In this document: positions 4,994 through 14,664 of the stretch, in pieces | Layout: every line of letters starts with the position of its first letter | How positions within the stretch are numbered: the first letter of the stretch is position 1 | DNA from: Pedobacter sp. | GTDB lineage: Bacteria; Bacteroidota; Bacteroidia; Sphingobacteriales; Sphingobacteriaceae | Direction of reading: 5' to 3' | Assembly (NCBI GenBank): GCA_028287885.1 | Contig: JAQBOT010000142.1 | Coordinates: 1 to 15,809 of the forward strand | Length of the DNA: 15,809 nt | Program-made: the position numbers and the translations under genes | The notes under the pieces: model-generated | What the model saw: the letters and a program-made list of their open reading frames with translations, nothing else | Database searches by the model: none | Told to the model about the DNA's origin: nothing

Positions 4994-5629
4994 TTATTTT
5001 CGGTTCAAGATTTCCATGTACTGTGCTCTGGGGATCATTTCTGCGCCCAGACTCATCAAGTGGTCATTTGGCATCTGACAATCGATGAGGTCAAACTCCT
5101 GTGTACGGCAAAGGCAGATGAATGCTGCTTTCGAGGCATTAGTCATTAAGCTAAACATGCTTTCACCACAGAATACTTTTCCGACAATATTCCCATATAA
5201 GCCACCAACCAGCACTTCATTGTGCCAAACCTCAAAACTATGTGCAATACCAAGTTCATGGAGACGGATATAGGCTTTTCTCATTGCGCTGGTTATCCAG
5301 GTACCATCCTGATCCTTGCGGAAAACCGCTGAGCAGTTTTCGATGACCTGCTTAAAGGCCTGGTTCCTACTGATCTTAAATGTACCGGATTTCAACACCT
5401 TAGCCATGCTCTTGCTTACCTTAACATGCTCAGGAAACACAACACAGCGCTCATGCGGAGCAAACCAAAGAATAGGATCGTCATCACTGAACCATGGAAA
5501 AATACCACTTTGATAAGCTAAGAGCAAGCGCTCCGGGCTTAGGTCGCCGCCTACAGCAAGCAAGCCATCCTCATCTGCAAAGGCAGGTTCAGGAAACACA
5601 ATCTCATCATCAAGTAGTCTAAAAACCAT
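4994..5629 (-). CDS. aat: Leucyl/phenylalanyl-tRNA--protein transferase
   Basis: 211 residues, close to the usual 200-240. Aat moves Leu or Phe from aminoacyl-tRNA to the N-terminal Arg or Lys of proteins, creating a destabilising N-degron for the ClpS/ClpAP pathway in the cytoplasm. Recognised from G-I-F-P-W-F at 42-47 near the N-terminus, T-W-I..M..AY..LH..GIAHSFE at 110-133, GGLYG at 142-146 and F-C-G-E-S-M-F-S at 153-160, all hallmark motifs of the family. It lies 22 bases after the App1-like gene on the same strand, so the two are probably co-transcribed. Its stop codon touches that of the converging SNF2 gene, leaving no space for a terminator. Confidence 0.96.
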   Translation of the reverse strand: MVFRLLDDEIVFPEPAFADEDGLLAVGGDLSPERLLLAYQSGIFPWFSDDDPILWFAPHERCVVFPEHVKVSKSMAKVLKSGTFKISRNQAFKQVIENCSAVFRKDQDGTWITSAMRKAYIRLHELGIAHSFEVWHNEVLVGGLYGNIVGKVFCGESMFSLMTNASKAAFICLCRTQEFDLIDCQMPNDHLMSLGAEMIPRAQYMEILNRK

Positions 5630-11675: not shown

Positions 11676-13079
11676 TTAAATGTCCTTAGCCATCTCCATT
11701 GCTTTACGCAATGCAGCTATTTTGTTGTTCACTTCATTGAGTTCGCTTTGTGGAACCGAATCTGCCACAATTCCAGCGCCCGCACGGTAATATAAATTAT
11801 TGTTCTTCGCCATAAAGGTCCGGATCATAATGGCATGATTAAATTCTTCATTAAAGCCCATATAACCAATTGCGCCAGCATAGAAATTCCTTCCAAGCCC
11901 TTCATACTGATCAATGAGCTGCATGGCCTTATACTTTGGCGCACCGCTTAGGGTACCAGCCGGATAAGTGTCCGCAACAACCTTAATTGCTGATTGGCCC
12001 TCCTGAATGGTGCCGCTTACTTTAGACACCAAATGTATCAGGTGTGAATAATATTGCACCTCTTTAAATGATTTAACTTCGACCTGTTTACAGTGTCTGC
12101 TTAAATCGTTACGCGCCAAGTCTACAAGCATCACGTGTTCTGCACTTTCTTTAGGATCTTCTTCAAGCTGTTTAGCTAGAATTGCATCGTCCTCATCGTT
12201 TCCAGTCCGCTTAAATGTTCCGGCAATCGGATAGATGTTAGCTATATTGTTTTTAATAGTTATTTGTGCTTCAGGCGATGAGCCAAATAACTTGAAGTTG
12301 CCATAATCAAAATAGAACAGATATGGCGATGGGTTTATGGAGCGCAGACACCTGTACACATTGAATTCGTCGCCACTGAAGCCCTGCGTAAAAGATCTTG
12401 ACGGCACAATCTGGAACACATCACCCCGCAAGATGTGCTTTTTAAGCTTTTCAACCATTTCGATGAACTGCGGATCCGTGAAGTTCGAAGTTTCAGGGCC
12501 TTTGGTATTGAATTTATACTCCGGAAAGTTCTTATTCTGAATGATATACTCCAGTTTTTCGAGGTCCAGATCTTCCTCTCCATCGAAGGAATTCTTAAAC
12601 AGCGTAACTTCGTTTCTGAAGTGATCAACAGCAATAATGTATCTGTACAAGTGATATTGCATGACCGGGATCTCTAGACCTTCCGGAGTTTTTGCCGTAA
12701 AACTGATGTCTTCAAAATAAGGAACAGCATTCCAGGTAAAGTAGCCAAACAATCCATTTGATACATACCTTTTGTCTGGTAGGGGTTCGGTGTCGAAAGC
12801 AGCTTTAAACGCTTGTATTTCCTCAGTAAGTACAAAAGAGTCTTTAGTTTCAGCCTGTCCATCTGGGAAATAGGTGGATAATACCCCATGGTTTAATATA
12901 ATTCCCGCAACAGGATCAGCGCAAACATAACTTACCGAATTCTCCCTGCTGTGGTAATCGGAGCTTTCCAGAAGTATGGTATTCGGAAACACGTCACGCA
13001 ACCGCAGGTAGATACTAACCGGCGTGGCCGTATCTGCAAGCTTCTTTTTAAAGGTAGTTTTCAGGTTGTATTTTTTCAT
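11676..13079 (-). CDS. trpE: Anthranilate synthase component I
   Basis: 467 residues. It converts chorismate and ammonia (from TrpG) to anthranilate, the first step of tryptophan synthesis. The C-terminal chorismate-binding domain (about 200-460) contains P-I-A-G-T-F-K-R, D-L-A-R-N-D-L, Y-P-A-G-T-L-S-G-A-P-K and Y-R-A-G-A-G-I-V-A-D-S. The N-terminal LLESS motif at 36-40 is the tryptophan feedback-inhibition pocket of known TrpE proteins, favouring TrpE over PabB. It is the first gene of a seven-gene minus-strand run and sits 60 bases after a transcription terminator that forms part of a probable attenuator. No Shine-Dalgarno sequence is visible at the start. Confidence 0.97.
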   Translation of the reverse strand: MKKYNLKTTFKKKLADTATPVSIYLRLRDVFPNTILLESSDYHSRENSVSYVCADPVAGIILNHGVLSTYFPDGQAETKDSFVLTEEIQAFKAAFDTEPLPDKRYVSNGLFGYFTWNAVPYFEDISFTAKTPEGLEIPVMQYHLYRYIIAVDHFRNEVTLFKNSFDGEEDLDLEKLEYIIQNKNFPEYKFNTKGPETSNFTDPQFIEMVEKLKKHILRGDVFQIVPSRSFTQGFSGDEFNVYRCLRSINPSPYLFYFDYGNFKLFGSSPEAQITIKNNIANIYPIAGTFKRTGNDEDDAILAKQLEEDPKESAEHVMLVDLARNDLSRHCKQVEVKSFKEVQYYSHLIHLVSKVSGTIQEGQSAIKVVADTYPAGTLSGAPKYKAMQLIDQYEGLGRNFYAGAIGYMGFNEEFNHAIMIRTFMAKNNNLYYRAGAGIVADSVPQSELNEVNNKIAALRKAMEMAKDI

Positions 13080-13865: not shown

Positions 13866-13900
13866 ATGAAAAAGCGACCCTATCCGGGGTCGCTTTTCTC
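13866..13900 (-). terminator. Strong terminator of the tRNA-like unit (bidirectional form)
   Basis: AAAAGCGACCC (13870-13880) and GGGTCGCTTTT (13887-13897) pair perfectly over 11 bp around a 6-base loop. A-rich sequence on the left gives the T-tail on the minus strand and T on the right gives a shorter tail on the plus strand. It lies 31 bases beyond the 3' end of the tRNA-like gene. Confidence 0.9.
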
Positions 13901-13927: not shown

Positions 13928-14034
13928 CTGTTGGGGAAGGAGTCGAACCTTCAAGGAGTAGTTAGCCCTTTCGGGTTTTCCAATTCTCCGCCACCGAGAC
14001 AAGGAGGTGTGTTTGCCAATTCCACCACCCAACA
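13928..14034 (-). tRNA. Class-II-like tRNA gene with a 38-nt structured variable arm; isotype uncertain
   Basis: Minus-strand cloverleaf of 107 nt. Acceptor TGTTGGG (14034-14028) pairs perfectly with CCCAACA (13935-13929). T8 and G9 are followed by a D-arm of Leu type (G-T-G, loop with AATTGG, C-A-C). The anticodon stem CCTCC/GGTGG has one U-U mismatch; the loop TTGTCTC gives nominal anticodon GTC (14000-13998), formally Asp, with an unusual pyrimidine at 37. The T-arm GAAGG-TTCGACT-CCTTC is canonical, and the base at 73 is G. CCA is not encoded (CAG follows). The variable region (13990-13953) is 38 nt, far above the 11-23 usual in Ser/Leu/Tyr tRNAs. It folds as GGAG/CTCC, TTGG/CTAA and a CCC-GAAA-GGG tip. 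It has its own promoter and terminator. A tRNA-derived regulatory RNA or degenerate tRNA is possible; I would not assign an amino acid. Confidence 0.75.
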
Positions 14035-14082: not shown

Positions 14083-14114
14083 CAAATGTAACAGGATATC
14101 TAATACGTTGCAAA
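14083..14114 (-). promoter_or_regulatory. Promoter of the tRNA-like gene
   Basis: On the minus strand TTTG (14114-14111), 20 bases, TACATTTG (14090-14083): a full match to the Bacteroidota consensus. Transcription would start near 14077, about 43 bases before the mature 5' end. The -33 box directly adjoins the inverted repeat of the Lrp gene, so a protein bound there could affect both genes. Confidence 0.7.
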
Positions 14115-14187: not shown

Positions 14188-14664
14188 ATGCTAAGAAAAG
14201 AAAGCCTAAATTTAGAAATTGATAACCTCGATATTGAGATCTTAAAACAGTTGATGCAGGATGCAACAAAGCCTTATACAGAAATTGCCAAGGATTTGAT
14301 TGTTTCAGGGGGGACCATCCACGTGAGAATGAAGAAGCTCCACGAGCTTGGGATTATTAAAGGCTCACACTTGATCATTGATCCACAGAAGGCCGGATAC
14401 GACATCTGTGCGTTTTTAGGGATCTACCTGGAGAAAGGAATTCAGTATAAAGATGCAGTAGCCCAGTTGAGTAAGATCAAGGAAGTGGTTGAACTGCATT
14501 ATACAACAGGGTCCTACAGCATGTTTGCCAAGATCATCTGCCGTGATACTTCCCACCTCAGACATGTGCTGAACGAAGAAATCCAGGCGGTACCTGGAAT
14601 TCAACGTACAGAAACTTTAATATCCCTGGAGGAAAGTATCAAAAGGCAAATTGAACTGAGCTAA
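14188..14664 (+). CDS. Lrp/AsnC-family transcriptional regulator
   Basis: 158 residues, the standard size. The N-terminal helix-turn-helix domain (about 11-60) reads DNLDIEILKQLM, then Y-T-E-I-A-K-D-L, S-G-G-T-I-H-V-R-M-K-K-L and E-L-G-I-I-K-G. The C-terminal ligand-binding (RAM) domain spans about 70-150, with Y-D-I-C-A-F-L-G-I-Y-L, E-L-H-Y-T-T-G-S-Y and G-I-Q-R-T-E-T-L-I-S-L. Family members bind amino acids, form octamers or larger rings, and commonly autoregulate. Which amino acid is sensed cannot be read from sequence. It is divergent from the tRNA-like gene across a 153-base region that contains a perfect inverted repeat. Its stop codon abuts that of the converging tex gene. Confidence 0.93.
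   Translation: MLRKESLNLEIDNLDIEILKQLMQDATKPYTEIAKDLIVSGGTIHVRMKKLHELGIIKGSHLIIDPQKAGYDICAFLGIYLEKGIQYKDAVAQLSKIKEVVELHYTTGSYSMFAKIICRDTSHLRHVLNEEIQAVPGIQRTETLISLEESIKRQIELS

Follow-up and report, generated by a model that had tools for sequence, protein, structure and literature searches.

The question raised by this locus is what an RNA can be for that combines the body of a tRNA and the anticodon GUC with a very long variable arm. The window, that is the whole stretch of 15,809 nucleotides of Pedobacter sp. DNA that was analysed, encodes this RNA on its reverse strand at 13928..14034 as a gene of 107 nt (positions 1-72 and G73), and all parts of the RNA given below lie on that strand. The general tRNA family of Rfam (RF00005) matches 13928-14034 with 39.1 bits, its gathering score being 29, and this was the only good match among the Rfam families; ARAGORN made no tRNA call in the whole window. 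A tmRNA is not indicated, as ARAGORN reported none in the window and there was none among the Rfam matches. The acceptor stem of seven perfect pairs is formed by UGUUGGG (14028..14034, beginning with U1 and G2) and CCCAACA (13929..13935), followed by the discriminator G73 (13928). The D arm (14009..14025) is Leu-like and contains G18 and G19, and the T arm reads GAAGG-UUCGACU-CCUUC (13936..13952), so that the body features of an elongator (7-bp acceptor, D and T arms, tertiary core) are present. This anatomy and the RF00005 score agree with an earlier note, made from the DNA letters, which had described a tRNA-shaped gene with canonical acceptor, D arm and T arm.

The same note had listed several oddities, most of which are borne out in the window copy. 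The variable region of 38 nt is branched as described, its long arm (13955..13989) comprising a GGAG/CUCC base, a UGG/CUA helix and a CCC-GAAA-GGG hairpin, the inner helices being seen by eye. The anticodon arm CCUCC-UUGUCUC-GGUGG (13991..14007) has U33, the anticodon G34 U35 C36 (13998..14000), U at position 37 and C38 (13996); G73, the pyrimidine at 37 and GUC at 34-36 had all been correctly noted. The U-U mismatch in the anticodon stem is present as U29.U41, but it is a trait of the home family, seen in 29/29 home-family copies (set A1), U29 occurring in 0/62 copies of set A6 (62 copies, of which 61 are distinct, found at 54 loci with models trained on such RNAs). Likewise the absence of an encoded CCA is real but normal for this genome, where only 4 of the 31 tRNA genes checked encode CCA. 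An ordinary tRNA-Asp is also encoded in the same Pedobacter genome.

Upstream of the gene, a promoter of the form TTG-N20-TACATTTG, a consensus which we take to be of the Bacteroidota type, lies on the reverse strand (14083..14113) and ends 48 nt before the RNA. When scored as TTG, 18-22 nt and TANNTTTG no more than 150 nt upstream of the gene, the motif was found before 55 of the 58 first copies in home-family loci; base-shuffled controls gave 0.46 on average and 3 at most, and the good promoter that had been proposed is well borne out by such sites. The perfect terminator proposed with it is not: a terminator scan of the locus found none, and only by eye can a possible bidirectional hairpin with flanking A/T runs be seen on the reverse strand at 13870..13897. 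Folding of the window copy alone gave a best structure of -32.6 kcal/mol and a cloverleaf of -28.9 kcal/mol, with a z of -0.82 versus shuffles; single-sequence folding of this copy thus lends the cloverleaf no support, another fold being preferred and no better than shuffles. In the predicted ensemble, UCC at RNA positions 30-32 pairs with 54-56 (0.52-0.58), and the two conformations suggested to arise through a GGAG/CUCC switch are favoured neither by folding nor by covariation.

Single-sequence folding aside, the predicted cloverleaf of the window RNA rests on covariation, which is seen for the acceptor stem, the D stem and the T arm. Among 128 copies (124 distinct), aligned by fitting to a model that itself favours the structure, standard pairs fill 99.5 % of the pair cells of the distinct copies. 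Changes on both sides were found at 16 of the 23 pairs, in 314 cells compared with 68 cells in shuffles, and were lost when the partner was slid, and in the base helix of the variable arm all four pairs changed on both sides. Alignment bias and relatedness inflate these counts, yet the contrast is large, and the covariation among homologues to which the earlier note had appealed is present.

A search by DNA recovered the RNA in 36 of 59 relatives, namely 35 of the 36 genomes of its own genus (that of the window included) and one genome of another family. Within the home family, it is found in 195/301 sampled genomes and in 15/25 genera. A covariance model built from the 29 home-family copies of A1 found 213 of 300 genomes sampled from the order positive at an E-value of 1e-12. 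In the class search (395 genomes), many families are represented among the listed matches of more than 105 nt and at least 60.7 bits; shorter matches (74-88 nt, 62.8 bits or less) were taken as ordinary tRNAs wholesale, not one by one. Named records bearing the RNA, again among the matches listed, include Chitinophaga, Dyadobacter, Algoriphagus, Cyclobacterium, Pontibacter, Belliella, Saprospiraceae and Flavobacteriales, and one such record is labelled Ignavibacteriales.

Viral sequences were searched with a pattern consisting of the first 29 nt of the RNA only, which matched 91 stretches; in 88 of these the RNA itself is present at an E-value of 1e-13, one copy being cut at a contig end. In seven viral contigs the genes near the RNA encode terminases (4), DNA polymerases (2) and a helicase (1), and such neighbours indicate that carriage by phages is real for those seven contigs at least. 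In known-phage records, neither the window form nor the form at locus L307 has a match, and the form at L246 matches one unannotated phage of 636 kb, LR756504.1. Judging by its sequence relatives, the RNA appears to belong to an old tRNA-like family that occurs in Bacteroidota and in part of their phages. Conservation over many Bacteroidia families together with covariation bears out the earlier view that the RNA is maintained, and the first of these rejects the alternative once offered, a decaying tRNA. That the gene is a pseudogene or the relic of an att site could draw on its odd features and the lack of CCA, however the spread over many families, the pairing (99.5 % of cells, 314 against 68) and the promoters (55/58) speak so clearly against it that this reading may practically be set aside.

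Other oversized, tRNA-like genes (108-148 nt, 33.7-50.2 bits with model R1) were also noticed in the phage contigs (L244 5130-7830, L249 4588-4706 and 9980-10112, L252 4907-5973, L307 5065-5412, L306 4517-4660 and L264 7214-7350). Most of them have an AGUCAGG/CCUGACU acceptor, A73 and, by eye, no anticodon arm, and several lie in large tRNA arrays.

The copy number and the variable region differ considerably among members. Same-genus genomes listed in the order search gave two matches each except G000, G108 and G368, and where these were read they are tandem genes, one of 107-114 nt and the other of 140-145 nt, the variable region of the second being longer by about 35 nt. The genome of the window has a single gene, with an acceptor of the second type and a variable arm of the first. 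As the single gene at L061 (G108) has the same mixed form, the window gene probably arose by natural fusion rather than through faulty assembly. At L059 (1421-1590, genome G021), both copies seem to be merged in 170 nt of a fragmented genome, perhaps by fusion or as an assembly effect. Tandem arrays were also noticed, with five copies at L213 (3983-5600) and three at L104 (1501-1869), and G062 has seven matches.

Complete genome copies of set A2 have a variable region of 39-123 nt and viral copies one of 21-93 nt, the overall range of 21-123 nt (A2 and A3) leaving out an incomplete match at L185. One member of 76 nt in genome G414 (L413 1539-1614), with the anticodon loop CUAUCUC, has a variable loop of 7 nt by eye; this short form shows promoter-like and terminator-like flanks by eye, and its genome has AsnA and GatC. 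Long D-loop insertions were seen by eye at L465, L481, L483 and L488. No part of the RNA is less constant than the variable region, while the anticodon loop and acceptor are nearly fixed. A small reading frame noticed by eye in the variable arm was discarded, its frame not being kept among relatives.

In twenty chosen long forms the arm helices covary, an internal loop (GAUAAAC / GCUAAC-like) is conserved and a GGGUUGACCAC loop is shared. Long forms with the GGGUUGACCAC loop come from second copies of Pedobacter, from uncultured Bacteroidota and from phages; in other long phage forms this loop is varied. Such an arm could be the working part of a regulatory RNA that binds mRNA or protein, with the tRNA body as a stable scaffold that gives processing and stability. 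The length and structure of the arm and the GGGUUGACCAC-like loop shared by many host and phage long forms would suit this explanation. However, it is the arm that varies most (from 7 nt in G414 and 21-24 nt in the phage forms with the shortest arm to 123 nt at most), while the nearly fixed parts are the loop and the acceptor, and we regard a regulatory RNA of this kind as rather improbable.

Because positions 1-29 are partly fixed by the pattern of the DNA search, identity was counted in the model-gathered set A6. U1-A72, G2-C71 and G73 occur in 62/62 copies and U35 and C36 in 61/61, copy L489 having a deletion in the anticodon loop; C38 is found in 60/62, and G34 in 56/61, being replaced in five. 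Position 37 is U in 56 copies, G in 4, C in 1 and A in 1, and is a purine in only 5/62. U33 is lost in 14/61 copies of A6 and in 13/143 and 15/88 of two other sets. G10 is kept in the window and in 29/29 copies of A1, and position 10 in A6 is A in 38, T in 19 and G in 5 of the 62. U11-A24 is present in 117/124 copies and C-G in 2/124. In A2 and A3 the anticodon loop is most often C/U-U-G-U-C-U-C; the genome's own tRNA-Asp has the loop CUGUCAC and G1-C72, and its own tRNA-Asn has U1-A72.

According to PMC6523644, AspRS of E. coli uses GUC, G73, G2-C71, C38 and G10, and the AspRS-substrate elements GUC, C38, G73 and G2-C71 are all found in the window copy. GatCAB of bacteria recognises U1-A72 (PMC4206432), a pair kept in all 62 copies of A6. 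The G1-C72 pair of bacterial tRNA-Asp is described as crucial for its identity in PMC9976931; this pair (here U1-A72 in 62/62) and a short variable loop (21-123 nt here; 7 nt in G414) are two features of tRNA-Asp that are lacking. By its sequence, the RNA has an anticodon loop and a discriminator of Asp type but a first pair of Asn type, all on a class II body. The earlier impression of no clear isotype therefore gives way to a coherent set of AspRS type in anticodon loop, discriminator and acceptor, together with U1-A72.

Could the class II body instead point to a serine or leucine acceptor used outside translation? The D arm is Leu-like, two unpaired bases follow the variable arm, and SerRS reads G73 and a long variable arm (PMC7609411). 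However, LeuRS uses A73, which is absent (G73 in 62/62), and the bacterial SerRS set includes C72 and C11-G24 (PMC9976931, Table 1), in place of which A72 (62/62) and U11-A24 (117/124) are found; the fixed U35, C36 and C38 would be explained by neither enzyme. We therefore hold such an acceptor to be quite improbable, and the homologues are not plainly Leu or Ser tRNAs, a finding that together with covariation favours the earlier suggestion of a non-canonical, tRNA-mimic RNA. Nor does an oddly shaped decoding tRNA-Asp fit well. GUC and the AspRS elements would suit it, as would U33 in the window copy and in 47/61 copies and the naming of the short phage forms L235, L265 and L276 as tRNA-Asp by ARAGORN. 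Loss of U33 (14/61) and of the purine at 37 (kept in only 5/62), however, argues against decoding, and an ordinary tRNA-Asp is present both in the own genome and in 2 of the 20 phage contigs checked (L252 and L288). The AspRS elements and the GatCAB pair sit on an RNA that is unlikely to decode, and a decoding tRNA-Asp is in our estimate highly unlikely. From its elements, the RNA probably is built for the loading of aspartate and not for reading the code, with asparagine-related chemistry as its probable service.

Occurrence of GatCAB was compared with that of the RNA, the presence of GatCAB being read from GatC (PF02686) alone, in 80 genomes of the class, with RNA status by model R2, and in 62 home-family genomes, with absence of the RNA taken from DNA and model searches. 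In the class, GatC is present in 40/40 genomes with the RNA and 25/40 without it (41/41 and 24/39 when the short RNA of G414 is counted as positive). In the home family, the figures are 33/33 and 4/29 (G006, G066, G068 and G091), with G097 below the cut-off. Pooled, and with G072, G074 and G096, which are in both lists, counted once, they become 73/73 and 28/66 with G414 as positive or 72/72 and 29/67 with it as negative. Fisher's test, which ignores phylogeny, gives p values of 1.2e-5 for the class (3.8e-6 with G414 moved) and 1.6e-13 for the family, and as the genomes with and without the RNA are related, these values overstate the association. In genus g44, one genome (G079) has neither RNA nor GatC and six tested members have both; in genus g39, RNA and GatC are both absent from 10/10 tested.

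AsnRS is over the cut-off in 80/80 class genomes, AsnA in 6/80 and an AsnB-type enzyme in 72/80. GatCAB is therefore not needed there for loading tRNA-Asn, and the RNA would seldom be the sole route to asparagine, a reading discarded on the AsnB-type counts. By reading of E-values, AsnB-type genes are over the cut-off in 35/40 genomes with the RNA; the eight weakest AsnB E-values include five such genomes, G677, G036, G648, G638 and G592, all without AsnA. As 24 of the 39 class genomes without the RNA keep GatC, GatCAB must have other work as well. The N-termini of AspRS from 20 genomes with and 20 without the RNA (G409 unusable), viewed under a discriminating-residue rule that we assume to apply, showed no group difference by eye.

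A possible dedicated synthetase was considered at L247, where a 280-residue class II synthetase core (11716-12558; PF00152, AsnRS/AspRS-like) lies beside the RNA, and was discarded as a common phage protein placed there by chance. Such proteins have at least 8000 scored relatives and occur in at least 600 viral stretches. In the DNA retrieved around the 80 loci kept for them, a high-scoring RNA (102 bits) was found only at L324, the contig of the query itself, with weaker matches (34-46 bits) at L347 and L380, and at every other locus of L031-L323 the protein is absent at an E-value of 1e-4. Elsewhere in the window, the reading frame at 4994-5629 resembles by eye a leucyl/phenylalanyl-tRNA-protein transferase (Aat).

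The neighbourhood of the RNA adds a further clue. On the forward strand at 14188..14664 lies a divergent gene for an AsnC-type regulator of the Lrp family (Pfam PF01037 and PF13404), whose best NCBIfam match is AsnC with 176.7 bits, below the cut-off of 227. A relative of it is present at 73/83 RNA loci of a first set, where orientation was unscored, at 66/119 named loci and at 22/36 further class loci; in the latter two groups of hits, which share no place, the regulator is divergent from the RNA and within 800 bp of it in 66/66 and 22/22 (88/88 of those found). At 10/83, 53/119 and 14/36 loci no AsnC-type gene was found, some being cut by contig ends, and the regulator-free loci include several of Cyclobacteriaceae as well as loci so cut. 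The asnC gene of E. coli likewise stands divergent to a partner related to asparagine; there the partner is asnA, for asparagine synthetase A, and here it is the RNA. A switch of the AsnC partner to asnA was looked for and is not supported, no AsnC-type gene being found within about 3 kb of asnA in the six genomes with AsnA.

Considering these observations together, we favour, with a probability of roughly 0.45, a non-decoding carrier that AspRS would load with aspartate, that GatCAB may amidate and that would stand under control of AsnC type. AspRS would attach aspartate to the RNA, which would be unable to deliver it to the ribosome; GatCAB would then turn the bound aspartate into asparagine by way of U1-A72. 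Such an RNA would be a dedicated carrier for tRNA-dependent asparagine chemistry, without the risk of asparagine at aspartate codons. AsnC-type control would match the level of the RNA to the supply of asparagine, and the variable arm may dock a protein or keep the translation machinery off. Against the predicted carrier it counts that U1-A72 is not the pair of tRNA-Asp, that G10 varies, and that G34 (5/61) and C38 (2/62) are at times replaced. It also counts against it that AsnB-type enzymes are common, that many genomes without the RNA have GatC, that at many loci the regulator gene does not lie beside the RNA and that AspRS is undistinguished between the groups.

The main rival, which fits nearly as well, is a decoy or scaffold: the RNA would bind AspRS, GatCAB or both without being turned over, so as to assemble or restrain them, and would be made or silenced under control of AsnC type. 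Some tRNAs act as a scaffold in transamidosomes. The same identity and co-occurrence data, the large structured arm with covarying helices in the aligned long forms and the carriage by phages would all be expected of it; however, the acceptor ends and G73, kept in 62/62 copies, are what one expects of an aminoacylated RNA, and the need of a pure decoy for U1-A72 is not obvious. We consider a decoy or scaffold rather unlikely, although more plausible than the regulatory RNA discussed above.

How does the RNA compare with known systems? Natural RNAs of tRNA-Sec and allo-tRNA type have acceptor branches of 12 or 13 bp that are split 8/4, 9/3 or 8/5. Novel cloverleafs were reportedly described by Mukai et al. 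in NAR in 2017. A literature search covering titles and the beginnings of abstracts, with subscription papers mostly outside, showed no description of such an RNA among the papers listed. Allo-tRNAs, selC-type tRNA-Cys and tRNA-Sec also have long variable arms, but their acceptor domains are longer (13 bp in the branch of tRNA-Sec), as given in PMC7609411, whereas the branch here is an ordinary 7+5, supported by covariation. With class II tRNA-Leu and tRNA-Ser the RNA has in common a Leu-like D arm, the arm geometry and a Ser-like G73, and it differs in lacking A73, in its Asp-type anticodon loop and in a variable region that measures 38 nt in the window copy and reaches 123 nt in relatives.

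Non-decoding tRNAs are already known as a kind from the pseudo-tRNA tRNAOther of Bacillus cereus, likewise tRNA-like and said to have a non-translational, non-canonical role (PMC3399842). The same paper gives tRNAOther a Trp anticodon, occurrence in B. cereus and some other Bacilli and poor charging with Lys in vitro (PMC3399842); the Pedobacter-type RNA differs from it in AspRS/GatCAB-type elements, presence in many Bacteroidota families, a long variable arm and an AsnC-type neighbour. The route in which ND-AspRS and GatCAB act on tRNA-Asn (described in PMC4206432) shares with the proposed carrier AspRS, GatCAB, U1-A72 and a possible conversion of Asp to Asn on an RNA, but the carrier there is the decoding tRNA-Asn (PMC4206432), and here it would be a separate RNA with GUC and anti-decoding features.

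That Bacteroidota and their phages have an RNA of their own, non-decoding and dedicated to the conversion of Asp to Asn by AspRS and GatCAB apart from translation, is a tentative proposal, somewhat doubtful as it stands. If undescribed, a tRNA-like RNA across Bacteroidia families and phages would be a large addition to non-translational tRNA biology. If the carrier reading is true, it would explain why GatCAB persists despite AsnRS and asparagine synthetases. The role of GatCAB beside AsnRS has been raised as a question for Bdellovibrio (PMC4206432), and the RNA offers a way to test which task GatCAB performs where AsnRS is already present. The RNA itself would be a tRNA that abandoned decoding but kept the elements for its synthetase and amidotransferase.
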